NCBI GenBank assembly: GCA_007693395.1
Contig: REDS01000033.1
Coordinates: 1-63,322, forward strand
Length of the DNA: 63,322 nucleotides
DNA from: Balneolaceae bacterium
GTDB lineage: Bacteria > Bacteroidota > Rhodothermia > Balneolales > Balneolaceae
Direction of reading: 5' to 3'
The first letter of the stretch is position 1. Each line of letters starts with the position of its first letter. Positions 2,234 to 28,407 of this stretch are shown one piece after another. The position numbers were made by a program, and so were the translations under genes. A model generated the notes under the pieces. The model was given only the letters and a program-made list of their open reading frames with translations. It did no database searches and had not been told where the DNA came from.

Positions 2234-2257
2234 TTTTTAAAAGTAAAGTAGCTTCTC

Positions 2258-2800: not shown

Positions 2801-2806
2801 AGCTGC

Positions 2807-6847: not shown

Positions 6848-6947
6848 AGTCTTTCAGATTTAATGAGTGTTTAATCATGCTTTTCTATCTATATAAGCGC
6901 AAAAACACCCGAACGTCTGCCAAAAAAGTGAAGAATATTTTACTGAA
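6848..6947 (-). promoter_or_regulatory. 100-bp gap upstream of the adhesin gene, possible promoter
   Basis: This separates the ECF sigma gene from the adhesin gene on the same strand. Read on the minus strand it carries GTTTTTGCGCTTATATAGATAG about 60 bp before the adhesin start, an AT-rich -10-like patch. A similar string (TTTCGTTTATATAGG) lies just before the kinase gene at 25840. The resemblance is suggestive only, and no Rho-independent terminator is visible. Confidence 0.25.
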
Positions 6948-7511: not shown

Positions 7512-7552
7512 AGATCTACTTTTGGGTATAGAGTAGTGTATCAGCGCACCTC

Positions 7553-9571
7553 TTATTTACTTTCAAGAACCAGTTGTGCTTCCTCGAATCTGTTTGCCCT
7601 GTGCAGGGCCTCAATCAAATAGTCCCGCAATAGTTCATTATTGTTATCCTGCCGATATCGCCGCAACCACCTTTCGCAGAGAGTATCTAACTCACCTTTT
7701 ATTTGGCTCAGCCGGATTATTGACCTATAGGCTTCCCTGTTCTGATCATTTAGTGACAACACCCTTTCGTATGACAGAATTGCTCTGTCTAACTCATTAA
7801 GCTTTGTATGAACGTGCCCAAGAGTTAAGTGCGACATTTCATGATCCGGGCTAAACCGTATAGCAGTTTCCAGCCTCTGCTTTGCTTCGCTCAGATCATC
7901 CCCTTTCTGATAATACAGAATGCCCGTATAATGGTTTAAAATAGCACTATTCTGATGGACTTCACCTGTACGATCGAGAATGTATAATGCCGTTCCGAAG
8001 GATAGTTGTTCGCTAATCAAAACAAGAAATTCCTCCAAAGCACGATTTATGAAAGATAGCTTTCTGTAGTTTGTGAAGAGTTCCGGCTCAAGAAGCATTA
8101 GCTCATTAAGCCCGGCCTCCGCATCCCGGCTAACAGTTTGATAGGTTTGTTCATAAAGATTAAACAAATCAATCAATAGGTCAACATACTCTTTCACACT
8201 GTTTGAGTTGATTTCATTTGCCCTGATTACCAGTAAGTCTCCTAAAGCTGAAAACTTACTATTACCAAGAATTTCAAATAGATCTTCCCGTTTCTGTTCT
8301 ATGTGGATAATTGATGCATACTGAAGTGCAATCCAGGGATCGGAACCGGATGAAAGATAATTTTGAAAAATCAGTTTTGATTTTTCTATCTGACCAGCCT
8401 CTTTTAAAACTAATGCAAAATCACCCAGAAGCCCTGTATGGTTTGGCCAAACTGCAAGGTATGTTTCATAAGATGTTATCGCCTGATCAAAATCCGGTTC
8501 ATACAAGTAAGACCTTGCTGCCGCCCGGGCGTACTCGGCAGAATGGTGTAGAGTTGAAAGTGAATCAAAGTGCGCGTAAGCAGCTTCTGTTTGCCCGGAT
8601 GCTATCAATTCGCGCCCATACTCTTCCAGCAGTTTACGATCATCAGGAAATTCAGCCAGTTTTAGCTCAAGAATTTTTAGCAAACCGGTTATATTCATTC
8701 TCTGCCGATTTATCTCAATCAACGTACGGTAAAGCCTTCTTTCACTTGGATTTTCCTCAATTTTCCCCTGGAAAAATGCATTTGCACGTCGAGCTTCATT
8801 GTTGTTTAGCAGAGCTCGTCCATACATTATGGCTTTATCTATGTTTTCCGGATCGGACAGATAGAGCTGTTCAGCAGCCAAGAGTAAATTTTCCGGGTCA
8901 TTTTTGTTTTCATAAGCCTGTGCTTTCATAAAAAGCAGATTCTCGTTACCGGGAAATAACTCCAGAGCTTCTTTGGTTGTTTCAGCAGCTTCTTTCCATT
9001 TCTCATTTTTGATATAGAGATAGGCAAGATTATTATGAACCGATAAACTATCCGGGGTGTATTTACGCGCTTCTTTGAAATGTGAAATTGCTGTTCGTTG
9101 TTCATTTCTCTCAAAGGCGTTACCTCCTGCCTGCTGGTGCAATTGCCCAAGATATGCTGTAATCAGATTTATAGAGATATTTTCTGAATCATTTGAATCA
9201 TCTTTCATCATAGAATAGATCTCTTCAAAGACAGGTATTGCCTTAACCGGGTCTATTTTGATTAGTGCTTCACCTTTCAGTAAGCCAAGCCTGAGAGATT
9301 CTGAATGCTCTTCTAATCCTTCTGAGGTAATTTCAACTGCCTTATCCGGCTTGTCTGTTAACAGATAAGAGCTTGCTAAATAGGCATAAACCTCCTTTGG
9401 TGGAGACGGGTATTGTAGTGCTGAGCGAAAAAAGTCAATGGCCTGCTCATACTCCTGCAATTCGTAGTGCAATGCACCTTGACCCATAAAATATTGCAGA
9501 TTCTGCCCGCTTGCTATCAAAGGCAATAAAATCAACACTCCTGTAATGAGGCCCTTTCGAAACGGTTTCAT
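7553..9571 (-). CDS. Secreted tetratricopeptide-repeat protein
   Basis: 672 residues. A signal peptide (MKPFRKGLITGVLILLPLIA then SGQ) is followed almost to the end by degenerate TPR units. Clear examples are near residues 20-110 (YEQAIDFFRSALQYP), 170-230 and 560-660 (ALNDQNREAYRSIIRL type). TPR arrays are protein-docking scaffolds, and this one should sit in the periplasm or at the outer membrane. It begins 19 bp after the FN3 gene and is the fourth gene of the barrel / giant / FN3 / TPR operon, so it may help assemble or anchor the giant protein. No catalytic domain is seen. Confidence 0.85.
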   Translation of the reverse strand: MKPFRKGLITGVLILLPLIASGQNLQYFMGQGALHYELQEYEQAIDFFRSALQYPSPPKEVYAYLASSYLLTDKPDKAVEITSEGLEEHSESLRLGLLKGEALIKIDPVKAIPVFEEIYSMMKDDSNDSENISINLITAYLGQLHQQAGGNAFERNEQRTAISHFKEARKYTPDSLSVHNNLAYLYIKNEKWKEAAETTKEALELFPGNENLLFMKAQAYENKNDPENLLLAAEQLYLSDPENIDKAIMYGRALLNNNEARRANAFFQGKIEENPSERRLYRTLIEINRQRMNITGLLKILELKLAEFPDDRKLLEEYGRELIASGQTEAAYAHFDSLSTLHHSAEYARAAARSYLYEPDFDQAITSYETYLAVWPNHTGLLGDFALVLKEAGQIEKSKLIFQNYLSSGSDPWIALQYASIIHIEQKREDLFEILGNSKFSALGDLLVIRANEINSNSVKEYVDLLIDLFNLYEQTYQTVSRDAEAGLNELMLLEPELFTNYRKLSFINRALEEFLVLISEQLSFGTALYILDRTGEVHQNSAILNHYTGILYYQKGDDLSEAKQRLETAIRFSPDHEMSHLTLGHVHTKLNELDRAILSYERVLSLNDQNREAYRSIIRLSQIKGELDTLCERWLRRYRQDNNNELLRDYLIEALHRANRFEEAQLVLESK

Positions 9572-9590
9572 TTTGCAGATGCTGTTTTTA

Positions 9591-11618
9591 TTATCTGTTT
9601 ACAGCCTGAACCGGTGTGGCTGTACGGGCTTCCCGCCCCAACCTGTCAACAGGGTATACCTTGAACCACTGCCCGGCTTCGCTCTCTGTATGGATAAATG
9701 TTGTTTCTGCACCGTCAACTTCGGCAATAGTTTCAAAAATTCCGGTGGCGATATTTGCTCTGTAAATCTTGAATCGATCTACAACATTGGAATCCTGAAC
9801 CTGCCAGCGCAGTTCAACTCCCTCATCAACAGAAAAAGCCTGCACATTACGCGATCTCGGTGGCGGTTGTTGATGATGAGCCAGCAGCGTATCAGCAAGA
9901 ACCGGTTCCGACTCATTTCCTGCTGAATCTACTGCTGTGACCGAATAAACATAATGATTAAACAACTCAATTTCATCGTCGCGATAGATTCTCATTCCCC
10001 TGTCTCTTTCGGTAAGTGTGTTCGTAGAATCAGACTCTACATGATGCCTGTACACCTTGTAACTTGTAACATCCGTAGAAACTGAGGCCGGCCATGTTAC
10101 CTGAACTCTATCTGTATTTCTCATGCGTACATCAATGCTTACAGGTGGTTCTGGTGGTGTTATCACGGGGATTTGAATATCCGTCCAGACGGTATCACTC
10201 CTATTCCCATTGAGAGCCACGGTAACAACACCATATTCAAACGTAAGCCCCTCTCTGAAGCCGTCTTGATAGCCACTATCTGTAAAATGTGGTTCCAGAT
10301 GAGCTGATTCATTCAGCTGATCGAACGTAACACCGGCCTCCGGGTGAATTTGTCTTCTCAGAATCTGGAAAGTTCGTAACATTTCCGGATCATTATGTGA
10401 TTGCCAGCTTAGTTCTGTTTGGAACTGCTCAACATCAAAGCTTACACTTAAGTCCGATACCGGTTCAGGTGTTCTGTAATCCCAAATGTAAACATGGGCA
10501 GGATTGGAGCGCTCACTTTCATTGCCGTTTTCATCAACAGCTGTTACAGCATACCTAAATTGAACTCCCGGTTCGGTCTCTTCATGCACAAAAAAAGTTT
10601 GAAGTGGAGGGAGTAGCTCTTCCGTAATTCTGTGATACTCCTCTTCATCTCCCCTTGCTTTGTAAACATGGTACCCAACCACATCAATATCGGTGCTCGC
10701 TGGCCAGGTAATTTCACTATGGTACCGCTCATTGACATTTGCCCGAACTCTTCTAACCATGGAAGGTGGGATATTATCCCTGATTAATAACGTAACTACT
10801 TCACTTCTTTCTGATTGCTGGCCTGAATAATCCATAGCAACAACCCAAAATTCATACTCTCTGTCTATATGGGGTACGGTTATATGTTTTCTGTATTCAT
10901 TTTGATTAGTAGTTCGAAGAAGAATTGCATCAGTTGCATCAACTGTACGGTTATTGCTCATATCACGATAAAATGTTTGAAAACGCATTACATTTTCTGT
11001 GGCCGGATCTTCGTCGTAAGTTGGAAAACTCCACTGCAGCCGAACTCTGCGCTCTTCATGATCAGCTTCAACATTCTGCGGCTGTAGCGGGCGTTCAGGT
11101 GTTAATCTCGATTCATGTTCGAGAATATCACCGGTTGGCCTGTTTAAATCGTCCACTATCTCAATTCTGTAAGCCACTATCTCACCAATTGGTGCATTTT
11201 GGTCGATAAATGAACGGCCTAAAAGGCGGGCAAGATTTGGCAGTGTGGCATTAATAATGGCATTCTCATCCGTTTGCGCCCTCAGTAATAAAAAAGTTCG
11301 CTGGGCATCTTCAATCTCCATACTCTCTTGTATAAATTCAAATTCGTCGCCCATTTGCTGTTGTAACTGAAAACCATTTTGAACGGGAAAAATTGGCTTA
11401 TCCGTGAGTTGTTCCCATTTACCATCATTTACATTGCGATACACATGAAAACCATGCGATAACGGAATTGCATAGTCATGAAAAATATAGGCTGTGCCAT
11501 CTTCTCTTGCCAAAACATCCATCTCAGCAAGTTCAATATTTTGTGAAAATAGTATCTCCGGCAAAATTAAAATTACCGATATAATTGCTGTAAAAATTAT
11601 TTTATTTAGGTAATTCAT
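9591..11618 (-). CDS. Secreted FN3-repeat protein
   Basis: 675 residues. The signal peptide ends near ILFSQ. A unique N-terminal domain of ~180 residues is followed by about five fibronectin type III units, recognisable by repeated Y-x-V-Y-(R/K) strands and the A-V-D-x-x-G-N-E-S-E turn (for example YHVYKARGD, YAVTAVDENGNES). It lacks the PNYPNPFNP-type sorting domain found in the adhesin, so T9SS export is not obvious. It lies 26 bp downstream of the giant gene and 19 bp upstream of the TPR gene. An extracellular structural or binding role is inferred from architecture only. Confidence 0.85.
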   Translation of the reverse strand: MNYLNKIIFTAIISVILILPEILFSQNIELAEMDVLAREDGTAYIFHDYAIPLSHGFHVYRNVNDGKWEQLTDKPIFPVQNGFQLQQQMGDEFEFIQESMEIEDAQRTFLLLRAQTDENAIINATLPNLARLLGRSFIDQNAPIGEIVAYRIEIVDDLNRPTGDILEHESRLTPERPLQPQNVEADHEERRVRLQWSFPTYDEDPATENVMRFQTFYRDMSNNRTVDATDAILLRTTNQNEYRKHITVPHIDREYEFWVVAMDYSGQQSERSEVVTLLIRDNIPPSMVRRVRANVNERYHSEITWPASTDIDVVGYHVYKARGDEEEYHRITEELLPPLQTFFVHEETEPGVQFRYAVTAVDENGNESERSNPAHVYIWDYRTPEPVSDLSVSFDVEQFQTELSWQSHNDPEMLRTFQILRRQIHPEAGVTFDQLNESAHLEPHFTDSGYQDGFREGLTFEYGVVTVALNGNRSDTVWTDIQIPVITPPEPPVSIDVRMRNTDRVQVTWPASVSTDVTSYKVYRHHVESDSTNTLTERDRGMRIYRDDEIELFNHYVYSVTAVDSAGNESEPVLADTLLAHHQQPPPRSRNVQAFSVDEGVELRWQVQDSNVVDRFKIYRANIATGIFETIAEVDGAETTFIHTESEAGQWFKVYPVDRLGREARTATPVQAVNR

Positions 11619-11644
11619 AACGTTAAGCTTAAAAGATAATCCTA

Positions 11645-14600
11645 TTAAAATGGCATTATAAATGGCTGAATGATTATCAACGGCGGAGAGTAGATATCAC
11701 TCTCTGTAATATCTACAGATCTCACTCTTGTTAATCCGGCACCATTGGTTATACGTACAACAACTTTAAGTCCTGTTAGCTCAAGATCATCCGGGATGGC
11801 AGCGGATATCCCGCTTTCACTGAACGTACCATGCCGAACACCTTCGTGGCTTTGTATCTCTACTTTATCTGTAACCGGACTTAAATAAGCTTGGAAGTTG
11901 CCCCCATCTAATGTACCCTGAAACAACGTCTGTGCCACCCAAAGCTCTACCTTTGCAACCCCTGATTCAGGATCAAGTATATTTCCAATTTCTGCATCAA
12001 CTTTTCGAGTTGATTCATAAACCGTAAAATTAACATTTGGAACTACAGGTGGAGTGGTATCAAGATTAAATGGTCCCGTTGCCCTCACTGTCGAAGATAT
12101 ACCCTTTGTATTCACACTTCTATAACGAATGTAAAGGTTTTCTCCAACGGGCAGGTTTTCAGCTGGGATTGATAAATAGCGCTTCGTTTCATTTATCTGA
12201 GTTGACCTTGGAGATTGCTGAAACGACAACATATCAGATATAGATGGTGAAGCATCGTAAGTGCCACTCAATATCTGCGATCTTGTTAGGTTCCACTGCT
12301 TGTCAACGGTATTACCTTGTGGAAAACTACGAATATCGCCGCTTTCAGGAGAAGTTCCGATTGCATATTGAATACCCAACAGATCCGATTCCGGATCATA
12401 AGGTACATCAATGATATACAATTTCACATTGCTGCCACTTACTTTCGCCTGAAGTTTTCCGGAATTGGGCCTTGTTGCATCGATGGACTGATGCGGGCCA
12501 AATGTGTAGGTCTCGCCCACATTACCGGCATTATCTACTGGGCGTACATGCAGATATACATCCCGCTGAAATGAATCCAGTACCGGTGTATTTGTTCGTC
12601 CAAATCGAATGTCATCTTCTTCTCCTTCAATAACCAGAATGCCTTCCTCGTGAATATCAAAGGCACCGGAATCAAATAAATTTTCCGGGTCGGATGAGCT
12701 TCGAGACAATACATATTGATAATGCGAAAGGCCGGAAACATCCTCTTCTGCCGAGAAATTCGTAAACTGTACTGAAGGAACTCCATAGGTATTTGTCCAG
12801 GATTGAATCTGGCCGAATGAGGGGTTAAACTCCGGCACCGTTTCAATCAGCGGATGTACAGTTGTACTACTGCTGCCGCCAAAGAATGGATGGTTAAGAT
12901 TATCTATAAAGATGGCTCCCATAAACTGTAGTTCAACGCTGTGAGGTACGGAGTCATCATACACAAGTGGAGCGTTTAAAGTTACCTCAGGGCTCCATTG
13001 ACCCATATTGTTCTCGACCCGTGCATTTATGTAATATTCGTCACCCGGAGTCATATCAAGTGGCAAGGTTGGGCCTTGCATCTCTTCAGCGGGAATATCG
13101 CTGTTTGTTCTCCTCTGTCCCTGCAGCTGCGTCCACTCAATGATATTGTCCATCCCCGGTTCAGTACCAACTGAATATTCAAACCGGGCAATGCCAACTT
13201 CCGGATCGTTACCCTGTATTAGTAAATTCACATTGGTTGAGCTCGATGTCCAATACCGTTTCTCTCCATTAACTGACGTGCTATTATATTCCGGCAAAAC
13301 AATCACAGGCTCTTCAGGCGGGCTGGTTTCTTCTGGTAATACTTGCGTACCGGGAGCAGTAGTGCTTCCTCCCTCATCAACATCAACAGAAAAAGAAGCC
13401 CTTCTGATTGCTGTATTACCTCCAGAGCCACGTACCCGAACACCAAAGTTGACATTAGTGGTTCTTGCACCAAAATTGTTTGCATATAGTGTATGATTCA
13501 TTCGATTACCCACACTGAGGTATCGGTCCTGCGCACCATAAATGTCCGTACTGCCCTCTCCAAAAACTCTGTAATTGTATTGAATGCTGTTTTCAATGAT
13601 TTCAACCGGGTGAGTTGCGGTCCATTCAACCTGTGTTTCATTGTAAAAAGTACCGTCCTGCCTGTTTGGATTTACAACAATCTCCGTTATTTGCGGAGGC
13701 AAGAGCGATTGTGCAATTTGATCTCTTTGGTTCACATAACTCTGAAGGTTGGTGTCTATCTCTCCTTCCACATCATCGAGGGCTCCCCTCCAATCCAGAT
13801 AATTATCAATCAGGTTGTACAAAATACCTCCAAGATTCGACTTAGTAGTATAAAACTGGTCAAGCAGTATGGTAAAGTTTGCAGCTGTTTCAAAGGTTTC
13901 AATTTTACTGTCGCGGTAAACTGCCCATACTTCCTGAACCATTCTTTGGTTCATTGCATTGATGTAAGCAGAAAGACCTGCACGGTTCATTTCGATCCAA
14001 AAATTTGTGAATGCGTCTCGGTACTCATTACCCAAACTTGATGATGAGTCTGTGAAAGGGTGTGTTACCCTGCTGTATAATTCCGAAACATGACTTGAAG
14101 CAGTAGGAGACTGCAGGGTAGTGCGGGTATCTTCTTCATCTGAAAGGATTCTTGCAAACTGTATTAATTGTACAAATTGCCTGCTAAAATTATTGGCCGA
14201 ATTTATTAGATTCTGCCCTCCAACTATGCCTGTATTATTGATTGAAGTTATATACGCAGTTCTTAAATTATTAATTGTGGTTTCCAGAGAGGGTTCAAGG
14301 TTTGAAATCTCGCTTCTGAGCCCGGTAGCCCACTCTCTCTTTGCTAAAATTTCATTTCCTAAGGCTGCAAAATATTGATCGAATTGCTCCATTAGCATTG
14401 CATTTAAAGCCATCCAACCTACAATGTCCATCTCTCCGAACAGCCCTGATTCAGCTTTTAATAATCCATCAAGCGACTCAAGGTTTGATGAAATGTCACT
14501 TATATTTTGGATAAATTGCTCATTCAGCAAACGTAACTGTTCAGAATATTCGCCAACACTTTGTTGCTGTTGCCCTGCCAGGTTTTCATCAACTGCAAAA

Positions 14601-17600
14601 TCTACTCCAGTCTCTGCATTGGTTGATGGTTCCGGTTGGCTCACATATTGCACCGGGCTGTCTTCTAAACCCATCATCATGTTGTCAAATGCAATTTGAG
14701 CCTGTTCGGTGTACTCAACTGCAATCAAAATATCGTCTACTACGATATCGCTCCAGCTTGATAGAGTTTGATTCAGTACAATCGCGTACACCTCGAGAGC
14801 GCCCTTTAAATTACTGGCATTCATGTCACTTGGTATCCACGGACCTTCCGAGCGCATTATATCCATCACAGACACAAATATTTGCGGTATTTGAAATGAA
14901 ATACTTGGCGAGTAATAAGCTCCCATTGCTGTCTCAATCTGACTAACCCAGGAATTTCGCTGTGGGAAAGGAAGATCATAAAATGCTATACCTGCATCCC
15001 TATACGTTTGAACCCCCGGAGTAAGTGCTGCAAGCGGTATTTGTTCCGGCATAGTTATATCATCAACAGCTTGAAGTGCTTCTGCAAGTAGCTGTGCAAT
15101 ATGTTCCTCAAACTGTTCCTGTTGGGCTCTTGCCTGATCAACAAGGTCAACATGATCTCCCTTACCTCTGCCATAGTCAAGGCCGTCACTGTCAGAATAG
15201 GATGCCCAACCATGGCCGCAGCGTGATTTCCCCAACACTCGGCCGCAACCATAAGCCGATGCAAAAAACTCATAGCCACCCCCTTGTTTTGTAACAAAAA
15301 TGGCCTTCGCTTCCGCATCAACAGATACCAATCCCTTCAAAACCTTGGCTTCTACATCAACAACCCCATAAGCACCAAATGGATACTGATAATCCTCATC
15401 CTGCATTATCCATATAGCTCCGGTAAGACTTGCTTTAAAATCGATTATCTTTATATCAAACCCGACAGATAGAGTAGCTTCGAACATAAATCCCGGATTC
15501 CCTGCCAAAAGTGTTGCATTACCGTTTAAATATCTGTATACAGTTAAATCTACATTTCCAATCACTCCCCATACCCTTTCACCTTCTTCACCAGCCAAGA
15601 AAAATTCCACATCTCCTGTTCCGTCAATGATAAAGGGTACATCTACGGTTATATCAATACCTACGATAATTGCAAATGGATCGCGCATAATGGACGCTGA
15701 CAAGGTTCCGCTGATGTTGGTACTCGCAATGGATTCCACACCATCCATTCCCAGAACAGATGCCCTGGCATCCATATAAAAACTTTGATTGGTTATCTGA
15801 AAAAAGGTTGATCCCTCAAGAATGGCAGCACTGCCTCCACCACCTAAACTCACCGATGCAAACAGCATAACTGCAAAATCGGCCTCACCCTGAATGGATG
15901 CAGCATCTTCATCCACCAGCTCGTGCACACCGCTTCGGCTCATTGCATTGTGAACCATTGTGAGATCGTCCTGAACCGGCCTGTAGAAAAATCCGCCACC
16001 GGCACCGGTAAGGTTTATTACTCCCGGAACAATTGGTATGCCTGCGTCAGACTGAACCGCTACAAACAGGCCATAACTCACCTGCCCTCCAATAGTTGAA
16101 AACTTTCCTGCTACAACTGCATCAATGGACTCACCGGCTAAATTAAATGATGCTGAAGCGGCAGCTCTAACTAAAATATCTTGCCCTTCCTGCACATAGT
16201 TTAATGAGGCATTCATTGAGAAAAAGTCATCGAGCTGAACGTGCAGATTTTCAACGGTTAATGCCCTCCCATCTGCACTGTTATAGAACATGACCCTGTG
16301 TATCCCACCACTAAGTCCACCACTTTCATTTCCGCCATCTGCATTGATGCTGATTTCGAGGCCTGCATTGTCTGAGTCCATCCCTATTTCGGGGCATGGG
16401 CCAAAGCACATAATCTCGGTAACTTCAACTCTCGTTGTAGCTACCTCTTCAGAGTCAAAATCACCATCTTCCTGGAGCTCATCAGGAGCTCTTTCCTGAG
16501 TATCAGCAAGGTCTATCATAAAACCAGCCTCATCTGCCTTAAATACAAATTGGCCAACCTCCATCGAGAAAATGCTTGCAACATCTATCGATCCACCGGT
16601 TATGTTCCCTATATCAACCAGGCCTTCTTCTGTTACCCGGATACCTTCATAGCTTAAGCTGGCATCAACAGAAGGCAGAGTCATGCCTGCTTCACCGGCC
16701 AGTAAAAGTTCAAACCCTTCAGAAGCAGAGGAGCTTATATCTGCTGCGATTTGAATGTTGAAAAAGTGAAGATCGAAATCGAAAGAGGTATTTCCGGTAA
16801 TGTTATAGTTCACATTAATACTTTGCCCGATACCATAACTGAGGCCAATTCCCGGTTGATTTGGGAAATTATTACTCTTGCCAAACTCAATGACCGGATC
16901 AGGATCATCACCCAAGTAGATATTACCATTAGCGGCCACGCCGGTATCAATCCAATCGAATGGATTAATTTCTATTGCAACCTGAGTGAGTTCAAACTCC
17001 CCGAAATTCAACAAGTCAAAACGTTCGTTCACCTCAAACTCCAATCCAATCTGGTCGATCTGAATTTGATTGCTCTCATCCCTGTACATCGTCAATTGGC
17101 CAACGGCATCATAATCTTCCACCGGAGCCGGCAGTGTTACCTTAATATCTGAGGTAAGCTGAAGGCCCTCGTCATTGGTTAATTCAATGGACTGAAGCAC
17201 CAGGTATTGTTCAAATATTTCGATATCACCGGCACTTATCTGGTTAAAATTAAAGTGCCCGGCCGTTGTAATTTCGAGGCCGGTGTAATCAATTTGTTGA
17301 TTGAGAAATTGAATATTTCCATCGGTAGCTAATGCAAGCTCTCTCCCCGATAATGTTACCGTTGGGTTGATCAAATTGATCAGGAAAGCATCATCAAAAA
17401 AACCAAATTGCTGATCTCCAAGATCTCCAACAGCCTGGCCGATGGCAAAATGGAGCGATGGGGATGAACTGTAATTTGTTACTCCAACCTGTAAATCGTG
17501 CACTGTGATGGATACAGGCTCATCAAGAATATCTTCAAATGAAACCTGTCCGTTTACACTCAGGTAAAAATTGTCGTTCTCAGATACCAGAGCCAATCCC

Positions 17601-20600: not shown

Positions 20601-23600
20601 TGAAAGCCTGACGGATCTACATAAGCAAATTTGTCTCCCCGGAAGTAGAAATCGGCCTGACCGCTTTGTACTCCGAACGGATAGAGGGAGATGCGAAAAT
20701 CTCTGCTGTATTCAACTGTTACTGCCGAATCAAAATTGCGGTTACCAAAGGCCACGCTTGCATCGGCACTACCGGAAGTGTGCACCCCAAGTGAATCAAT
20801 AACCACAGTTCCTGCTAATTCCATTAGTAAACCTGGATCTAACATTAGCTCAGTTTCAGGCTCAACAGATTGAAAGGTTAACTGATCGAGCTGATCCGAT
20901 ATTCCCACTTCGAACGCAAACTGTTCATCAAAAATAATCCGTCCACTCTGCACCCTGAACGTGCTTAGATCGATGAGAAAGTTATCAAATGTAACTCCCA
21001 TGCTGCTTTCACGTAGCCTAAAGTTGTGGCGGCCATCAATAAAAAATCCATCCCGGGTAATTTCTGCTCTGTTCAGCCTGAATGTTAAGGCAGGAATATC
21101 TTCTGATGGAATGTACCAGTCAAATGGTTCGTCGATGATGAATGAAACGTCAATAAACCGGCCTGTCATCAAGTTGATAATTGCGGAACCCTCTGCTGTT
21201 GGCCCATTTGGCAAATCAATAAATGCATCTACATGCATAATTGCCTGCTGCCTGCCACTTTCACCTATATCAAACTCAACTGATGATGAGGTAACCTGAG
21301 CTTCAAATGGCCCAACAGCAAGCGGACATCCGGGAATTACATCTTCAAGGGTGCCACGTATTCCATCAGACAGACGTAAATCATCCCCTGAAAAACTGAT
21401 TCTATTATCACCGCCTTCACATTGAAATGGAGCGCCAAGCTCAATACCTCCATCAAGGTACAACCTGCCAAATGGCTGCATTTCATCCATTGATGGGTAC
21501 TCCAAACCGGCCACACCCGATATATCCTGAAGCTGAAACTGGTAGCCGGGCCCTATTTCCCAATCACAGCCCGCAAAATTTTCCAGATTTAAATTGGTTA
21601 TTACCCGATTTTGATCAATTCTGCCTTGTGTTGCCACTAATTCAGTACCAAGCAGGCAACCCGGTATATTTCTGCTATTTTGCACGGCAGCACTACCTTC
21701 GAACTCTATTTCCCATGGGCCGGGTGCCTGGCCGTCCCAGTCAAATACCGGGAATGTGAACTGATTTAAGACAAACTCTTGAAGCCTTAGTCTGAATAGC
21801 TCTGCATTGAAAGATGGCAGCGGATTTCTTTGCTCATTATCCCCAAAGTTGATTGACTCAAATTCAATTCCTTCCGGTGTTAATGAAATGCCCTCCATTG
21901 TCAGCGAACTCCACGAATTGAATGCCGGTACTTCGAGACTGGCATCAAACCCAAGCTCAAAATCCCATGAATTCCCTGGATTATAGCTTAAATGTCTTAG
22001 TTCAGTATTTTCAAAACGTAGCTCCGCAAAACCCAGATCAATTCTCGGATCAATTACAGGACAGCTTGAGCGATGCCGCTCTATATTAAAACCATCACTG
22101 CTGCTAAGTGCTATGGTTGATTTTGATCCACAATACCTGCCGCTGGTAGTCAACATACCGATAGTAGATGCCAGCTCTGCGTTGTATACAAGTGAGCCAT
22201 CAGCAGTAAAAAGATCTATATCGCCTAGTACTCTGTTTACCTGCATAGTCAAAAATTCGCTTTCACTTACAAGCGGTACATCAAATTGTTCGTTGCACAG
22301 TAAACCCGCAGCAAGTGATGCATCCCCCAATTCAAGGTTTCGCAGTTCGCAGGGCGAATCTATTCCCATCAGGCGGGCATCACCATCGGCCCATACCCGA
22401 TTTGCAGGATATTCAACCCCAACGGTTGTTAACTCAAGCTCAAGCAGATCGTGGCTGAAGGATGCAAGCGGATCACCCGAAATTTCTGCTTCGCCATGTA
22501 ATCCTTCTCTTGTTACCACAATTTCGCCATCAGCGCTGAACCAATGCTGATCAGGTGTTAAGAGAGAGATATCAAGAGTAAAGTTTCTGCCAAATCTCCA
22601 ATTCAGTTCATCAAAAGTAACCCACTCATTCTCCGGAAGAAGGTTTTCAATAATATCAGCTGCGGCATTTACACGGCCTCCTGCCAGAATGGGATTTGCA
22701 AGATTGTTTGCCTGAATTAAAATATTTACATCGGCTTCGGTTATGAATTCTCCGGCACCGGCGAAATCGAGATGAAGATTTGCTTCTCCAATCAGTTCAT
22801 ATGCGTCAGACACAAGATTGGCAGTGAGCCCTTCGAGTCCCGTAATTTTGGCAAAGTCGGGTATCAAAATAATTTCATCAAGATCTGCCAAATCGATAAC
22901 AGGATCTTGTTCAGCCTCTTTAAAGGTAAACGTATAAATCTCGCTCTCTCCATCACTTTGGAAAGGAATTTCCTGAATGGCATCATTAGCTGTCACCTGC
23001 CATGCATAACGCCTGCCTGGATCGAGAGGCAAAAACTCAATGGTATATGGCAGAGTGGTTTCATTGATGAGTGTAGTTTCAGCAATAGCCCGATTACCCG
23101 AGATAGCCTGTAACGGTGTTTGTCCCTCGAATACTTCTACAAGCAAAAAATCATACGCTATCTGCCGGCCGCGAAGCGCCACAACGGGAGTCCATGAAAA
23201 AACAGGTACATCCAGTGTTACATTTGAACCTCGTGAGGGAGAAACAAGGCGCGGAGGAGGCGGATAACGAACGGAAAAATTTGCAATACCGGGAATTACA
23301 CTAATTTGAGCTGCACTTGCAGGGCGAGCTTCAATCTCAATGGTATACCGGCCTTCCGGAATAACCCCCGTCTGTACCAGTTGATTTTGGATATCTCTTG
23401 GCAGGCCGCGAAGTACATCGTTTGAGGTTTGAGGAAAAATCAGTTCTTCAAAAAAGTTTACAAAGACATAGGTTCCGGGAGTAAATGCCCGGGGTTCTGA
23501 TTGCAGGTCAATAATTGCCCTGCCATCTTTTCGAACTACAAAATCAAAAATAAAATCGATAGGTTGATTAAACTGGCTTGTATAAGTAAAACTAATTTGA

Positions 23601-23800
23601 TATTGGCCGGAAATAAAATTGTTCTCGAGATCATCAGCGAAGGGAGTGGGTAAAATAGACGGTATGCCGGTAATAGAAACCTGACTTGAACTTTGGGACA
23701 AAGCTGTTGCAGGTAATAATACCATCAGAAGTGAAATCCCAAGAGATATTCTTGCGCTTAAAACCAATCTTTGAAATATTCTGGTATTCTCTCTATGCAT
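11645..23800 (-). CDS. Giant secreted beta-rich protein of about 4050 residues
   Basis: The preferred start is the ATG at 23800, ten bases after the upstream gene ends and directly before a signal peptide (LLMVLLPATALSQ). An upstream start at 23860 would overlap that gene by 50 bp. Residues ~150-320 hold an FN3-like domain (PRLVSPSRGSNVTLDVPVFSW). Residues ~320-2800 are short alternating beta strands with GxxxL/INxxGL-like turns. A long unit is duplicated: LVPDRLPLPTEQIAYL near residue 1075 recurs as FLPDRIPLPSEDIAYI near 1820. Residues ~2885-3375 are alpha-helical and probably coiled. The last ~680 residues return to FN3-like beta domains (VGTEPGMDNIIEW type). There is no T9SS sorting domain. 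The function is unknown; the strand pattern recalls long beta-structured translocation or bridge proteins, but I see no diagnostic motif. Confidence 0.88.
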   Translation of the reverse strand: MHRENTRIFQRLVLSARISLGISLLMVLLPATALSQSSSQVSITGIPSILPTPFADDLENNFISGQYQISFTYTSQFNQPIDFIFDFVVRKDGRAIIDLQSEPRAFTPGTYVFVNFFEELIFPQTSNDVLRGLPRDIQNQLVQTGVIPEGRYTIEIEARPASAAQISVIPGIANFSVRYPPPPRLVSPSRGSNVTLDVPVFSWTPVVALRGRQIAYDFLLVEVFEGQTPLQAISGNRAIAETTLINETTLPYTIEFLPLDPGRRYAWQVTANDAIQEIPFQSDGESEIYTFTFKEAEQDPVIDLADLDEIILIPDFAKITGLEGLTANLVSDAYELIGEANLHLDFAGAGEFITEADVNILIQANNLANPILAGGRVNAAADIIENLLPENEWVTFDELNWRFGRNFTLDISLLTPDQHWFSADGEIVVTREGLHGEAEISGDPLASFSHDLLELELTTVGVEYPANRVWADGDARLMGIDSPCELRNLELGDASLAAGLLCNEQFDVPLVSESEFLTMQVNRVLGDIDLFTADGSLVYNAELASTIGMLTTSGRYCGSKSTIALSSSDGFNIERHRSSCPVIDPRIDLGFAELRFENTELRHLSYNPGNSWDFELGFDASLEVPAFNSWSSLTMEGISLTPEGIEFESINFGDNEQRNPLPSFNAELFRLRLQEFVLNQFTFPVFDWDGQAPGPWEIEFEGSAAVQNSRNIPGCLLGTELVATQGRIDQNRVITNLNLENFAGCDWEIGPGYQFQLQDISGVAGLEYPSMDEMQPFGRLYLDGGIELGAPFQCEGGDNRISFSGDDLRLSDGIRGTLEDVIPGCPLAVGPFEAQVTSSSVEFDIGESGRQQAIMHVDAFIDLPNGPTAEGSAIINLMTGRFIDVSFIIDEPFDWYIPSEDIPALTFRLNRAEITRDGFFIDGRHNFRLRESSMGVTFDNFLIDLSTFRVQSGRIIFDEQFAFEVGISDQLDQLTFQSVEPETELMLDPGLLMELAGTVVIDSLGVHTSGSADASVAFGNRNFDSAVTVEYSRDFRISLYPFGVQSGQADFYFRGDKFAYVDPSGFHPVMAFFAEYLVPDRLPLPTEQIAYLQLREDGELLVDVAENEEGNYVLSTIPGSNLSFVVPYIDPDNPPTLANVAINDLTISANPYSPEVISGSVEVDVPADNPVFNLTGRNVPLTIRQIHFGSRMVNGSSITALYMLGNMHLFDQELDGANDVEFYLRGDGFVRANFNLTGMDSRLSIAPGDRVVIGVDELSGNFDMPVGSGSPNYDFSVGGSIEVLTDEGYRAGADLTVRTESGGFFTISDFDGYAFDESPGFGIGNFNLNLEEIVSIPEFSYSTEHGFEFAIELDLDIGIELSGGQRIDFPLNEIEIRHDGISFPGQLVDESSFPGLNLPEIDLLGFGFKPLALNIPSGFTWSWVDGFDISPNLLMNFAVYLPEFEGTPLSPEDGLLFTNVGFDEGFLTGAVDLDLGGIELPIASGDQSPSLLVDGLSVALAKVPSNSYRQAIDFDINGTINNIPAFTVDDPSACPEGAEYSLSIIEGRAFEGSITNLQPCGYLELGPVILEVPNADLNLYLDNDVQMAVLDGSVDVTLPSPGGGQPGTISGQLALDAISGTIHDGSVSITQPFVLNMPYFKDEDPLFTFAINQASLDSQGLTLTGTGNLEKGNVDASVNFDNLIIALPEFYIAGGSATVAAEFSVLFDVMPFGFEIIADGDPMPANNALLMDLDAQVIINEHGLNFTGAAASNLIYEGEQYTNLRVELVDDFAMSISGLSVTRGRAEFYWDEDGVPAAMPIAYIDEDGFHFGAGLLAFLPDRIPLPSEDIAYIIVKDDEGEPLVEVESTESGMLISASDYLSLVVPALPDHAGEDLEIGVSFTLQTDDAYNVTGGSLSLQSNISLQNRLNLPVTLTHLNLDDDDGISLEIGLTFDLPAIFEGHEAALFATLSQNGVESGSFSVGEVSATYDASLEPIYTFDFSGSVPGSGETDTFVANLLGIEATFGSNSVSFAGTLGSSLVLEEDDDPLFFNAQWSSEGWSFLLDPGDTLDDLRLGQAVFSLDDHEGLALVSENDNFYLSVNGQVSFEDILDEPVSITVHDLQVGVTNYSSSPSLHFAIGQAVGDLGDQQFGFFDDAFLINLINPTVTLSGRELALATDGNIQFLNQQIDYTGLEITTAGHFNFNQISAGDIEIFEQYLVLQSIELTNDEGLQLTSDIKVTLPAPVEDYDAVGQLTMYRDESNQIQIDQIGLEFEVNERFDLLNFGEFELTQVAIEINPFDWIDTGVAANGNIYLGDDPDPVIEFGKSNNFPNQPGIGLSYGIGQSINVNYNITGNTSFDFDLHFFNIQIAADISSSASEGFELLLAGEAGMTLPSVDASLSYEGIRVTEEGLVDIGNITGGSIDVASIFSMEVGQFVFKADEAGFMIDLADTQERAPDELQEDGDFDSEEVATTRVEVTEIMCFGPCPEIGMDSDNAGLEISINADGGNESGGLSGGIHRVMFYNSADGRALTVENLHVQLDDFFSMNASLNYVQEGQDILVRAAASASFNLAGESIDAVVAGKFSTIGGQVSYGLFVAVQSDAGIPIVPGVINLTGAGGGFFYRPVQDDLTMVHNAMSRSGVHELVDEDAASIQGEADFAVMLFASVSLGGGGSAAILEGSTFFQITNQSFYMDARASVLGMDGVESIASTNISGTLSASIMRDPFAIIVGIDITVDVPFIIDGTGDVEFFLAGEEGERVWGVIGNVDLTVYRYLNGNATLLAGNPGFMFEATLSVGFDIKIIDFKASLTGAIWIMQDEDYQYPFGAYGVVDVEAKVLKGLVSVDAEAKAIFVTKQGGGYEFFASAYGCGRVLGKSRCGHGWASYSDSDGLDYGRGKGDHVDLVDQARAQQEQFEEHIAQLLAEALQAVDDITMPEQIPLAALTPGVQTYRDAGIAFYDLPFPQRNSWVSQIETAMGAYYSPSISFQIPQIFVSVMDIMRSEGPWIPSDMNASNLKGALEVYAIVLNQTLSSWSDIVVDDILIAVEYTEQAQIAFDNMMMGLEDSPVQYVSQPEPSTNAETGVDFAVDENLAGQQQQSVGEYSEQLRLLNEQFIQNISDISSNLESLDGLLKAESGLFGEMDIVGWMALNAMLMEQFDQYFAALGNEILAKREWATGLRSEISNLEPSLETTINNLRTAYITSINNTGIVGGQNLINSANNFSRQFVQLIQFARILSDEEDTRTTLQSPTASSHVSELYSRVTHPFTDSSSSLGNEYRDAFTNFWIEMNRAGLSAYINAMNQRMVQEVWAVYRDSKIETFETAANFTILLDQFYTTKSNLGGILYNLIDNYLDWRGALDDVEGEIDTNLQSYVNQRDQIAQSLLPPQITEIVVNPNRQDGTFYNETQVEWTATHPVEIIENSIQYNYRVFGEGSTDIYGAQDRYLSVGNRMNHTLYANNFGARTTNVNFGVRVRGSGGNTAIRRASFSVDVDEGGSTTAPGTQVLPEETSPPEEPVIVLPEYNSTSVNGEKRYWTSSSTNVNLLIQGNDPEVGIARFEYSVGTEPGMDNIIEWTQLQGQRRTNSDIPAEEMQGPTLPLDMTPGDEYYINARVENNMGQWSPEVTLNAPLVYDDSVPHSVELQFMGAIFIDNLNHPFFGGSSSTTVHPLIETVPEFNPSFGQIQSWTNTYGVPSVQFTNFSAEEDVSGLSHYQYVLSRSSSDPENLFDSGAFDIHEEGILVIEGEEDDIRFGRTNTPVLDSFQRDVYLHVRPVDNAGNVGETYTFGPHQSIDATRPNSGKLQAKVSGSNVKLYIIDVPYDPESDLLGIQYAIGTSPESGDIRSFPQGNTVDKQWNLTRSQILSGTYDASPSISDMLSFQQSPRSTQINETKRYLSIPAENLPVGENLYIRYRSVNTKGISSTVRATGPFNLDTTPPVVPNVNFTVYESTRKVDAEIGNILDPESGVAKVELWVAQTLFQGTLDGGNFQAYLSPVTDKVEIQSHEGVRHGTFSESGISAAIPDDLELTGLKVVVRITNGAGLTRVRSVDITESDIYSPPLIIIQPFIMPF

Positions 23801-23810
23801 AGTATTTCTG

Positions 23811-25556
23811 TTAAAAAGTTCGCTGATATCTGAATGCTCCTTCCAGTTCCTGGTATTCACTGCCCGTACCTTCTACTACGGAGTTTACCCGCGTTCTTAC
23901 TGTAAGTGTTAAAGAATCTTTACTGCTGAGGCGGTAGGATGTATTGATTGTACCCATAATCTGCTGGATGGTGTTTAAATCGGTACCTCCATTAAACATC
24001 TCTCTCTCAACGCTGTTTTGACTATAGCCGCCATTTACACTGAGCGTCAGTGATCTGTCGAAAAAAGAGTAACTCATTCCGGCATTCAGCCCAATGTTGG
24101 TGATATCTGCCTGGCCCGATGAATTGACCATATAATTACCCGAAAGATTGGCCGACAGGCCTCCGGGAAATCGTATGGAATAGTTTGCATTACCAGAAAT
24201 AGTTTCTGAAAGTGTTGAATCATCGCCCAGAACATCATCACTAAATGTATTCTCAATAGTCATGAAACTGCCAGAGATTGAAAATGTGTGGCTGTAATCT
24301 CCGGTGCGGAAATTAAAACTTGGCTGTAACATAATGTTGTGCGACACCTGAGACTGTTCAAAGCCCTGATCATCCTGCGGGGTTACATTATTTAAAAAAA
24401 GATCGTAATTGGTGTTTAGCGAGAAATAGTCGGTGAACATAATCTGCAAATTTGTATTGATATTCGTGTCTGATTGTGTTTGGAGACGACTTCCCAAGAG
24501 GTTGTCCCGCCCCAAGACAATGTTCGACTGAATGTTTACACGGTTATTCAGCATTCGAAATGAGGGACTCAGACTGATGCGCTCATGATCATCACGGGTT
24601 CGGCTGCGCCCATGAGAAATAAATCCTGGCTGAATTCGCTCATAACCAAGTGTCAGATCAAATGGATTGGAAACAAAATTTGCAAAAGCTTGTCCTGCAT
24701 AGTTCACCCTTGTAGTATTTCGCGGCAGATAGATATTTGTCAGAAAAGACGGATAAGGAATTTCAGTAAGATCAATCGGTGAACTGCCCAAATCCCGTGT
24801 GAAGGCAGATACCGTTACTTCACTCTCAAGACTGAATCTGCCATCAAAAAAGTCCACTTTAAAATCCGGTGTGATTGTGATGTTTTCCTGAGCTGTAATC
24901 TCTACCTCTTCACTCGAAAGTGAGGCTCTTTCATCAATAGAATAGTATGTACTCAGATGAAAATAAGATCCTGTTTCTCGCCCAACCCCAATTTTGGCTC
25001 CACCTGACCACCTCTCAAAAGCCGGTTCCCGAAAACCCTGCTCCAGGCTTGGCCGAACTGCCCTTCTTGCCCTGCCTGCTATAAGTTCAACTAAAAAATT
25101 TCCTGGTTCAGCGCGGATGTACCCGCCACGAAGTGAGGCTCCGTTAAGACTGAACTCCGAAAACCTTGTATTAATATCGCCGGCCTGAATATTCAGCCAT
25201 CTCCAGGTAGCGCTGTACGATATTGTGTTCATATTCTGGCGCAGGCCAGTATCATCCGTAGAGTAGTTGATGTTAAAGCCCGACCGAAAGCCAAATGTGT
25301 TTACATTAACGCCTACATCCGTTCGGAGAACTGTTGGGCTGCGGCGATTCTCTATACCGTCTGCTGTATAGGCGTTCGCATCGAAACTGATCGACCCTGA
25401 AGTAGCGAAAGGCTGCAGGTCAGTATCATCCCAAAATGATCCTGACTGTGCATAGATCATACCTGCAATGAAATGTGCAATCAAAAAGAACATCACAAAA
25501 ATCGTAACGAAACGAAAAATCAAAACTCTGTTGATTGAATCTTTAAACATTTTCAA
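23811..25556 (-). CDS. Outer-membrane beta-barrel protein
   Basis: 581 residues. After a signal peptide (ending IYAQSGSFWDD) the sequence is a succession of amphipathic strands with alternating aromatic residues (YSATWRWLNIQAGDIN, FSLNTNYDLFLNN, MSYSFFDRSLTLSVNGGYS), ending in FRYQRTF with the terminal Phe typical of barrels inserted by BAM. It is the first gene of the operon, and the giant gene follows after 10 bp. It could be the export pore or surface anchor for the giant protein. The upstream 283-bp region is shared with the divergent kinase. Confidence 0.85.
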   Translation of the reverse strand: MKMFKDSINRVLIFRFVTIFVMFFLIAHFIAGMIYAQSGSFWDDTDLQPFATSGSISFDANAYTADGIENRRSPTVLRTDVGVNVNTFGFRSGFNINYSTDDTGLRQNMNTISYSATWRWLNIQAGDINTRFSEFSLNGASLRGGYIRAEPGNFLVELIAGRARRAVRPSLEQGFREPAFERWSGGAKIGVGRETGSYFHLSTYYSIDERASLSSEEVEITAQENITITPDFKVDFFDGRFSLESEVTVSAFTRDLGSSPIDLTEIPYPSFLTNIYLPRNTTRVNYAGQAFANFVSNPFDLTLGYERIQPGFISHGRSRTRDDHERISLSPSFRMLNNRVNIQSNIVLGRDNLLGSRLQTQSDTNINTNLQIMFTDYFSLNTNYDLFLNNVTPQDDQGFEQSQVSHNIMLQPSFNFRTGDYSHTFSISGSFMTIENTFSDDVLGDDSTLSETISGNANYSIRFPGGLSANLSGNYMVNSSGQADITNIGLNAGMSYSFFDRSLTLSVNGGYSQNSVEREMFNGGTDLNTIQQIMGTINTSYRLSSKDSLTLTVRTRVNSVVEGTGSEYQELEGAFRYQRTF

Positions 25557-25839
25557 ACTTTGTTACTTTCTATAGCGAAGTGGTGTGGAAAAAACTTTCA
25601 CTTTTTCTCATATCTATCAAAAATTAGCCTCAATCATAACTGATTGTGCCGCACATTTAGCGAAGCATACTTATTTGACAGAGTAGATTTATGAAGCGAA
25701 GTCCGACATAAGCTTCATTAGTTTTGTAAATAGCTATCTGTTTGAAGTGGATCAATCCACTCTCGCAGGAATTCTCAGTGAATTAATTTGACCGTTTTTT
25801 GCTAAAAATTTCGTTTATATAGGAAAGGGAAAACTGTTC
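25557..25839. promoter_or_regulatory. Divergent control region between barrel/giant operon and TPR kinase
   Basis: This 283-bp spacer must hold promoters for both directions. Visible elements are a dyad AGTGGAT-CA-ATCCACT at 25746-25761 (two 7-bp arms, 2-bp spacer); an inverted repeat ATGAAGC / GCTTCAT at 25691-25697 and 25712-25718; the heptamer AGCGAAG three times on the plus strand (25574, 25659, 25695); a TTGACA at 25675; and TAGTTTTG at 25719, which fits the Bacteroidota -7 form TAnnTTTG. AGGAAAGGGA at 25821-25830 may serve as the kinase ribosome-binding site. Assigning any of these to a specific regulator is inference. Confidence 0.45.
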
Positions 25840-28407
25840 ATGAAAGTCATGAATTCTGATCACTGGAAAAAAATTGAGGATATAGTTGATGAGCTTTTGA
25901 AGCTTTCTGAGGCTGAGAGAAGCCAAAGAGCCAGGGATTTGTGCGGTCAAGATATTGCCCTTCTAAACGAAGTATTGGATTTCCTGAATGTGATGGATCA
26001 ATCGGATGATGCCATCTTATCCCTGAAAAAATCGAAGCATATCATCGCAAAGTCTGTTGTTAGAGAGATTGAGCAGGAGAGAGATGCTTCCTATTTCATC
26101 GGGAAAGAGATCCAGAATTACCAGATTGTTAAGCACCTGGAAACAGGCGGTATGGGGGCCGTTTTTCTGGCAGAACGTTGTGATGGCACCTTCCAGAAGC
26201 AGGTTGCCATAAAAATTCTGAAACGGGAATTTGCGAACCCAACAATCAGTGAACGATTTAAACAGGAGAGGCAAATTCTTGCAAATCTGACCCATCCAGG
26301 AATTGCTAAACTATACGATGGCGGTATGTTTGAGGGGCTTCCGTATATCATTATGGAGTATGTGGAAGGTGAGCAGATCAACAAATACTGTAACTTGGAG
26401 AAACTTTCAGTAAAGCAGCGCCTCAAGCTCTTTGGGAAAGTACTTGATGTGGTTGATTTTGCTCATAGAAACTTGATTATTCATAGAGATTTAAAGCCAG
26501 AAAATATACTTGTGAATTACCGGGGAGACGTAAAAATTCTCGATTTTGGAATTGCACGAATTGAGAAACTGTCTGTTCAGGAAACAGATCGTCCGGATGG
26601 TTTTCATTTTTTAACGCCTCAGTTTGCATCCCCCGAACAGCTCCAAAAAAAGGAAATCAACACCCTTTCCGACATTTATTCACTCGGTATTTTACTCAAT
26701 CAGCTACTCATCGATGTCTCCCTTTTCGATATTGAAGGGTTGTCAATCAAAGAGATTCTGGAGAACAAAACATCGTACTACCCTAAACAACCATCAGAGA
26801 AGTATAACCATCTGCCTGAGCAAACCAAGCTTGATATAGCTGCAAACAGAGGGCAAGCACCGGGCAACCTGATAAGGGAACTTAAAAATGACCTTGACTG
26901 CATCGTATTAAAAGCCATACAGCCTGAACCAACTTCCAGATACGAATCTGCCAAGGCATTCAAAGAAGACCTTGAGAGGCGGGAAAAGCACCTGGCGATA
27001 ATGGCCAGGCAGGATGAACCCATCTACAGAACAAATAAATTTCTGATGAGAAATCGCTCATACCTTTTTGTGGCTCTGCTTTTAATGATTGTACTCTCTT
27101 CAACAGCTTTTGTAACCATATCAGGTATTTACGCAGAGAGAGACAGGGCCCTCTATGAAATGAAAAAAGCAGAAGAGGTAACACAATTTTTAATGGGACT
27201 GTTTGATGATGCCAATCCTGTGGAGCAAAATGATATCGAAGTATCAGCAAGCAGTATTCTTGAACTTGGAATCAACCGGATTGATACCGTTCAGGATCCT
27301 GAAATAAGGCATCAGTTATTTATGGTAATGGGTAATGCATTTCATAAGCTTAGTGAGTACGAAAATTCACTTAATGCTTTTAATCATGCACTCAAAGAGA
27401 GTAAAGAATTTTTTGGCTCAGATCATATTAACACAGCAGACGTCTATTATGCTATTGGTAATGTTGAAGTTACATTTTTTAACTGGCATCTGGCTGTACC
27501 GCCCCTCAGATCTGCATTTGAAATTTATGAAGAACAACTGGCAGAAGATAACTTGAAGCTTATCAGAACCATGTCGAGGCTGGGCAGATCACTATACAAT
27601 TTTGGAGAAAGGGATTTAGGTATAATTTTTTCTGAGAAAGCTTACCAACAAATAAGTGAAGAAATGTTGCCGGAAACTTCCTTAGAGATAATGGACGATT
27701 ATGCTATCTATCTTATGAACAATGAACAGATAGAAGATGGAATAGAGGTATTACATGCAAAGGTGAATTACATTTTAGAACATTTTGATGATGAAAATTA
27801 CAAACTTGTTGGCCCTTATAATCGTTTGGCGCTGGCTTACAGACAAATAGAGGAGTTTGAAACAGCGATTACTTACTATAAAAAAGCACTCCAAATTAGC
27901 GAATCAGTTTATGGAATAGAACACCTTACTACAGATCGTATCCGGAGAAATATGTTTGGTTCATTAGCTGCACTTGATCTCCATGAGGAACTGGAGAAAC
28001 AGTTTCATATTGCGATTGAAACAACCAGAAATCGATTCTCTGAAAATCACTGGAGAACGGGTCAGATCTATGGCACATTTGGCCTTTACAGAATGGAGAG
28101 AAACAACTATGCAGACGCTATGAAATATCTGCAGCTTCGACAAGATATTTATGTTGAAACATTGGGAGCAAACCATGAATGGACTGTTGGCGCCTTTTCA
28201 CATCTGGTGGCAGTACACATATTTTCTGAATCAGCACAGGCAGATTCTTTGCTTACAGAGCACAAAAAAATGATTCGCTCTCATCAGCCTGAAATACACA
28301 GCCAAATACTACGGTCACTTAATCATGTTATTGGAATTTATGAAAATAAAGAAGGGGATTATTCAAAAATAATAGATAAATACAGCACTTTTTTACCTGC
28401 AGAATGA
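25840..28407 (+). CDS. Membrane Ser/Thr protein kinase with extracytoplasmic TPR tail
   Basis: 855 residues. An N-terminal helical region (1-90) precedes the kinase domain (~94-375), which has Gly-loop GGMGAVF at 103-109, VAIK lysine at 125, HRDLKPEN from 215, DFG at 235-237 and SPEQ after the activation segment. The first Gly of the usual GxGGMG loop is Glu here (LETGGMG), but the catalytic residues are intact. One membrane segment spans about 408-430. Residues ~450-830 form kinesin-light-chain-like TPRs. The ATG at 25840 is preceded by AGGAAAGGG. The gene diverges from the giant-protein operon. Family knowledge suggests signalling from periplasmic protein status to cytoplasmic targets; an ECF sigma factor lies in the same locus. 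The substrate is unknown. Confidence 0.92.
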   Translation: MKVMNSDHWKKIEDIVDELLKLSEAERSQRARDLCGQDIALLNEVLDFLNVMDQSDDAILSLKKSKHIIAKSVVREIEQERDASYFIGKEIQNYQIVKHLETGGMGAVFLAERCDGTFQKQVAIKILKREFANPTISERFKQERQILANLTHPGIAKLYDGGMFEGLPYIIMEYVEGEQINKYCNLEKLSVKQRLKLFGKVLDVVDFAHRNLIIHRDLKPENILVNYRGDVKILDFGIARIEKLSVQETDRPDGFHFLTPQFASPEQLQKKEINTLSDIYSLGILLNQLLIDVSLFDIEGLSIKEILENKTSYYPKQPSEKYNHLPEQTKLDIAANRGQAPGNLIRELKNDLDCIVLKAIQPEPTSRYESAKAFKEDLERREKHLAIMARQDEPIYRTNKFLMRNRSYLFVALLLMIVLSSTAFVTISGIYAERDRALYEMKKAEEVTQFLMGLFDDANPVEQNDIEVSASSILELGINRIDTVQDPEIRHQLFMVMGNAFHKLSEYENSLNAFNHALKESKEFFGSDHINTADVYYAIGNVEVTFFNWHLAVPPLRSAFEIYEEQLAEDNLKLIRTMSRLGRSLYNFGERDLGIIFSEKAYQQISEEMLPETSLEIMDDYAIYLMNNEQIEDGIEVLHAKVNYILEHFDDENYKLVGPYNRLALAYRQIEEFETAITYYKKALQISESVYGIEHLTTDRIRRNMFGSLAALDLHEELEKQFHIAIETTRNRFSENHWRTGQIYGTFGLYRMERNNYADAMKYLQLRQDIYVETLGANHEWTVGAFSHLVAVHIFSESAQADSLLTEHKKMIRSHQPEIHSQILRSLNHVIGIYENKEGDYSKIIDKYSTFLPAE

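Follow-up and report, generated by a model that had tools for sequence, protein, structure and literature searches.

What does a compact set of envelope genes do when one of its members encodes a secreted protein of about 4,050 residues, and does such a set have a described relative? We addressed this question for a locus of a Balneolaceae bacterium (GenBank assembly GCA_007693395.1, contig REDS01000033.1). The window is the whole stretch of 63,322 nucleotides that was analysed.

Layout of the Locus

The genes of the unit and its immediate neighbors are as follows.

3..1613, plus strand: C-terminal part of a second kinase, truncated where the contig begins (matches the first kinase's profile)
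2258..2800, minus strand: small lipoprotein adjoining the adhesin (lipobox-like start LLSACGG)
2807..6847, minus strand: T9SS-tailed Big_1/invasin-D3 adhesin adjoining the unit (PF09134, PF02369, Por_Secre_tail)
6948..7511, minus strand: ECF sigma factor, probably of the kinase-associated (ECF43-like) kind (TIGR02999, PF07638)
7553..9571, minus strand: secreted (periplasmic) TPR protein, optional component (TPR matches)
9591..11618, minus strand: secreted FN3 protein, third core component (675 amino acids; PF00041, E 9e-12)
11645..23800, minus strand: giant secreted protein, the putative passenger (4,051 amino acids from the ATG at ORF residue 21)
23811..25550, minus strand: predicted outer-membrane beta-barrel (579 amino acids; signal peptide; C-terminal F)
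25840..28407, plus strand: membrane-spanning Hanks-type kinase bearing TPRs, oriented away from the barrel gene (PF00069, E 8e-40)

A sequence-only reading had described a packed minus-strand series diverging from a membrane kinase with TPRs. The open reading frames bear this out exactly: barrel, giant, FN3 and TPR genes are separated by 10, 26 and 19 bp, the sigma factor gene follows after 41 bp, and the divergent gene has both its kinase domain and its TPRs. The second kinase placed at the far end is of the same type (E 1e-85 to a profile of the first), but only its C-terminal part, with the tail of the kinase domain, a transmembrane helix and TPRs, lies in the window. Pfam and NCBIfam recognize the kinase, the sigma factor, the TPRs and one FN3 domain at the locus; neither the barrel nor the giant of the window is matched by any model of the two collections.

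Conservation of the Gene Set

Could such a layout be a coincidence? This is ruled out by the many relatives in which barrel and FN3 homologues pair on one strand about 14 kb apart. In a search of 147 related genomes the FN3 protein was matched in 74 and the barrel in 52. The paired regions were retrieved and annotated with profiles made in this analysis, a simple script calling the longest ORFs as genes. For some loci, selection was thus by paired barrel and FN3 matches; less biased are a sample of 345 genomes (see below) and a scan by the giant alone, blind to its neighbors and with one genome per species. The latter gave 40 loci from Balneolaceae, other Balneolales, Roseithermus, "Bacteroidetes" metagenome-assembled genomes, Ignavibacteriae, Calditrichota, Latescibacterota and KSB1, and full-length homologues of the giant occur in other classes and phyla.

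The core of barrel, giant and FN3 protein recurs in Balneolota, Rhodothermota, other Bacteroidota, Ignavibacteriae, Calditrichota, Latescibacterota and KSB1, and wherever a locus has enough flanking sequence, the three genes are almost without exception kept together. The FN3 gene adjoins the giant in nearly all loci, and the barrel is found in nearly all full units. At the distant loci where the contig runs past the giant, the FN3 gene comes next; if the contig extends to the barrel, this gene is found on either the upstream or the downstream side of the FN3 or TPR gene, so that gene order is variable while gene content persists. The TPR gene belongs to only part of the units (some in Balneolia, Bacteroidota and Latescibacterota), and the kinase/sigma pair accompanies fewer still. 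The sigma factor, kinase and TPR genes are therefore optional accessories and not core. We found no name or description of the gene set in the open-licence PMC literature; it is apparently both widespread and unnamed.

The window's own genome may hold a further long unit: contig C73 breaks off within a barrel gene that adjoins a kinase and a sigma factor, contig C209 ends inside the C-terminus of a giant followed by FN3 and TPR genes, and the two may be its two ends.

A TANFOR-Type Head

By eye, the first domains of the giant resembled the TANFOR domain. The corresponding model, TIGR02542, matches neither the giant nor anything else in its genome, even at E 10. A profile of giant residues 51-336 matches TANFOR-like proteins of other Bacteroidota (E 1e-17 to 1e-52), and hhalign aligns the giant's head with their heads over 268 columns (P 99.9, E 2.2e-35). 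These comparison proteins were found with TIGR02542 at 20-43 bits and so themselves lie below its curated cut-off of 67 bits. From these alignments we regard the TANFOR head of the Bacteroidetes "polymorphic toxins" as a homologue of roughly the first 290 mature residues of the giant. The locus was previously taken to have no obvious described counterpart; this no longer holds, since its giant carries a TANFOR-type head (PMC7073777). In several genomes the TANFOR-like genes stand with an FN3 gene, a T9SS-type repeat gene and small genes, a setting that resembles the toxin loci of PMC7073777, and in Flavobacterium-like loci the heads bear variable C-termini.

The bodies behind the head are interchangeable: among the giants of about 4,000 residues, a second type of about 1,950 residues and the other TANFOR proteins compared, the head is the sole region in common. 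The shorter type was seen at five loci (L041, L042, L045, L093 at 1734-7580, and L113), frequently alongside the long type in one genome, and has a conserved C-terminal domain of its own, cysteine-containing and about 220 amino acids long. This C-terminal family was considered as a wider link and rejected, being absent from the long giants and from TANFOR proteins outside the Balneolales loci. An even longer TANFOR-headed open frame, about 6,400 amino acids, is present in three related genomes (L166, from 4340); an FN3 gene lies downstream, and a barrel was not found within 25 kb of the head.

Architecture of the Giant

Four segments can be told apart in the giant, all on the minus strand.

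22853..23710: TANFOR-type head, two predicted FN3/Ig-like domains (ORF residues 51-336)
15161..22852: body, predicted long beta-strand array (ORF residues about 337-2900)
13691..15160: probably helical segment, from composition and sequence (ORF residues about 2901-3390)
11645..13690: C-terminal Ig/FN3-like repeats (weak fn3/Big matches in homologues)

A model of the first 900 or so residues, about a quarter of the giant (pLDDT about 85), places two FN3/Ig-like domains in the head (model residues 7-268; FN3 fold matches with Z up to 11), followed by consecutive long strands. A structure search on the modelled part gave no trustworthy fold match for the body. Teneurins in the top rows of a Foldseek search (TM about 0.09) were judged spurious; only the two head domains matched, and a search of solved structures by sequence with head and body gave nothing meaningful. 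No bridge-like lipid-transfer or AsmA-like structure was among the matches listed for the body, which is a weak test.

The body is conserved over about 3,700 residues, and the C-terminus can be aligned to its end across loci and genera; it is not polymorphic. No toxin domain was found in the window giant with Pfam or NCBIfam, nor in ten giants with Pfam. Downstream of the giant are the FN3, TPR and sigma factor genes and no immunity-like gene. Six cysteines are invariant across ten giants (ORF residues 504, 522, 577, 600, 1554 and 1580 of the window giant), which suggests that the body contains disulfides and therefore resides in an oxidizing environment. Phenylalanine is the last residue in about half of the long giants (for example NLNLTF, IMPF), recalling an outer-membrane beta-signal; this ending is not universal.

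The Barrel and Its Link to the Head

The product of 23811..25550 is predicted to fold as a barrel: its AlphaFold2 model (mean pLDDT 84) has 26 strands by DSSP and the usual terminal aromatic residue. The best fold match is MtrB (6r2q_B; Z 20.4, 454 residues aligned), and ushers and LptD are matched as well. We take these matches to point to a large barrel and not to a function. A search of solved structures by sequence returned nothing meaningful for the barrel, and a scan of 18 barrels against Pfam and NCBIfam left the family without a matching model, those of PorP/SprF included.

Does the barrel go with the head? A barrel profile built from window-family loci only matches genes near TANFOR-like genes of other Bacteroidota, with E from 1e-41 to 1e-88. 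In the phylum sample of 345 genomes (head threshold E < 1e-30), the head occurs in 81 genomes, the barrel in 82 and both in 80. A same-strand barrel lies within 25 kb of at least 97 of the 119 heads, and of at least 64 of the 81 heads outside the window's class; both counts are lower bounds, as the three best barrel candidates were scored per genome. The chance expectation is roughly 1 of 119, from about 1.4 barrel matches per genome of about 4 Mb. At seven loci (L157-L163) a TANFOR head and then a barrel form a single open frame of 871-1016 amino acids, and several of these fusions adjoin a separate TANFOR protein and an FN3 gene.

Over 40 units the distance correlation is 0.93 for head and barrel, 0.69 for head and FN3 protein and 0.72 for barrel and FN3 protein, all values inflated by shared ancestry. 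When the long and the short unit of one genome are compared, the heads share 39-42% identity and the barrels about 36%, against 16-18% for the FN3 proteins. Most simply, this would mean that the head and the barrel recognize each other, whereas the FN3 protein goes with the passenger. These observations suggest that the TANFOR class has a dedicated outer-membrane barrel partner, which the TANFOR paper (PMC7073777) does not mention.

Regulation

The sigma factor scores 169 bits with TIGR02999 (cut-off 126) and matches PF07638 at E 2e-38. The kinase at 25840-28407 has HRDLKPEN and DFG motifs and shares the build of PknS, with an N-terminal extension, a kinase domain, a transmembrane helix and TPRs. 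A Hanks-type kinase gene is near the sigma factor gene in the window, and adjacent pairs stand by six further units (L043, L048, L056, L083, L111, L113). According to PMC13147305, the ECF43-group factor EcfK is phosphorylated by PknS, and a neighboring Hanks kinase is a hallmark of that group. The PknS-EcfK and PknT-EcfP pairs described there resemble the window in that a TIGR02999-type sigma factor neighbors a Hanks kinase of the membrane, which is extended at its N-terminus and carries TPRs outside the cytoplasm; their target genes differ, EcfK controlling a type VI system. Judged by sequence, then, the window pair belongs to the known ECF43 kind. In region 2.2 the window sigma factor reads TETALVHE, as compared with the QTTA motif, which holds the phosphorylated threonine of the ECF43 kind; one threonine is kept and the other is a glutamate.

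The sequence-only reading suggested that the locus is sensed and regulated. The pair is indeed of a known one-pathway type (PMC13147305), but it is found at only some units, and from its position we infer that the unit may be its target.

Export and Display

Taken together, the data lead us to read the locus as a three-part module for outer-membrane display or export, with accessories, an interpretation that we consider reasonably probable. The barrel of about 26 strands would be the giant's dedicated outer-membrane partner, and the TANFOR-type N-terminal head would dock onto it, presumably on the periplasmic side. The long beta-rich body would be an interchangeable passenger whose final place is outside the cell. 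The FN3 protein goes with a given passenger body and may aid its folding, solubility or display, and the TPR protein, where present, may serve as a periplasmic escort. The membrane kinase with TPRs would probably phosphorylate the neighboring ECF sigma factor and so switch the unit on. Of the surface-assembly or export system proposed earlier, the conserved unit is upheld and display or export at the outer membrane is its best reading; export itself is inferred.

By which route would the giant leave? One alternative is that it is an atypical T9SS substrate, exported by SprA and merely anchored by the barrel, as in SprF/SprB and PorP/PG1035. SprA is present in 80 of 80 unit-bearing genomes tested, the window's own included, and exceeds the cut-off in 7 of 8 distant-locus genomes outside the first sample; no unit-bearing genome without T9SS was found in these two sets. 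T9SS-tailed adhesins are recurrent neighbors of the units, the one at 2807-6847 included, and the pairing of a giant adhesin with a barrel is well established for T9SS (PMC9143113). TANFOR neighborhoods are also enriched in T9SS substrates, and export of TANFOR proteins by T9SS is an open hypothesis in the one dedicated paper that we found (PMC7073777). Against this, the window giant has neither a type A (TIGR04183) nor a type B tail (NCBIfam, E 0.001) and ten giants have no T9SS tail (Pfam, E 0.1), while TIGR04183 matches 27 other places in the same genome. The barrel, with its 26 strands, also falls outside the PorP/SprF family of Pfam and NCBIfam. The co-occurrence with SprA is weak evidence, because SprA is common overall (266 of 345 genomes) and the listed genomes without it are almost all of one family. 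We regard T9SS export as a plausible minority reading. The size of the barrel, the lack of a tail and the presence of a TPR partner incline us slightly toward passage through the barrel itself over T9SS export with a barrel anchor, in what is nearly an even call.

Two observations concern the neighbors. The adhesin at 2807-6847 contains two identical repeats of about 100 residues in tandem, which suggests a recent duplication, and a pair of adhesin and small lipoprotein also flanks two other units (L050, L057). A conserved divergent neighbor of 725 amino acids was considered as a unit component and rejected, as it is an ordinary Tex protein.

In a second alternative the giant never leaves the periplasm but serves there as a rod, for structure or for transport, anchored to the outer membrane by the barrel. 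A periplasmic location could fit a long protein on which no export tail is seen, strand follows strand throughout the modelled part of the body, and the fusions put the head on the N-terminal, probably periplasmic, side of the barrel. We think this unlikely: the same head is found on proven or predicted toxins that must exit the cell (PMC7073777), the C-terminal Ig/FN3 repeats are typical of surface proteins, and, weak as that test is, known bridge-like transport folds are missing from the matches listed. That the giant is itself a TANFOR-class polymorphic toxin, as its homologous head and the variable C-termini of Flavobacterium-like loci (PMC7073777) might suggest, is very improbable given a C-terminus that aligns across genera instead of varying, the lack of a toxin domain, and FN3 and TPR genes where an immunity-like gene would be expected.

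Returning to passage through the barrel, it is tempting to hypothesize an export route of the FCB superphylum not recognized before, in which a 26-strand barrel recognizes an N-terminal TANFOR head and exports interchangeable passengers independently of the T9SS tail signal; we hold this broader reading to be possible but speculative. The passengers carried to the surface might then include rods of 4,000 residues, proteins of 2,000 residues and antibacterial toxins, a proposal just as tentative.

Comparison with Known Systems

How does the unit compare with systems already described? MtrB and other barrels of 24-26 strands (usher, LptD) resemble its barrel in size. MtrB, although the best fold match, shares 12% identity, and the unit has no cytochrome partners; a common function is unsupported. 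Inverse autotransporters (intimin/invasin, type Ve) likewise combine a barrel with a mostly beta passenger and an N-terminal anchoring end. Type Ve barrels have 12 strands, in contrast to the 26 of the unit, where barrel and passenger are separate open reading frames and where, in the fusions, what is joined to the barrel is the head and not the passenger. The T9SS type B adhesins SprB/SprF and PG1035/PorP (PMC9143113) also pair a large secreted protein with an outer-membrane barrel of its own. In the unit, by comparison, a type B tail was not found, the barrel is larger and of another family, and recognition is apparently by the N-terminal head.

Described relatives are the TANFOR toxins (TIGR02542; Jana et al. 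2020, PMC7073777), which resemble the giant in a two-domain N-terminal head judged homologous, a Sec-type N-terminus and large size. Their loci also have FN3 and T9SS-tailed neighbors, and the same barrel family stands beside TANFOR-like loci. The unit differs in a giant with a conserved body and without toxin domain or immunity gene, and in a genome that TIGR02542 does not match. The comparison suggests that the toxins form a single branch within a larger family; its long members, found in several phyla, are surface-type proteins that are conserved and not polymorphic. A dedicated barrel that co-varies with the head and is sometimes fused to it is a concrete candidate for how TANFOR proteins, antibacterial toxins included, cross the outer membrane, and such a partner for a class known mainly as toxins changes how TANFOR export should be tested.
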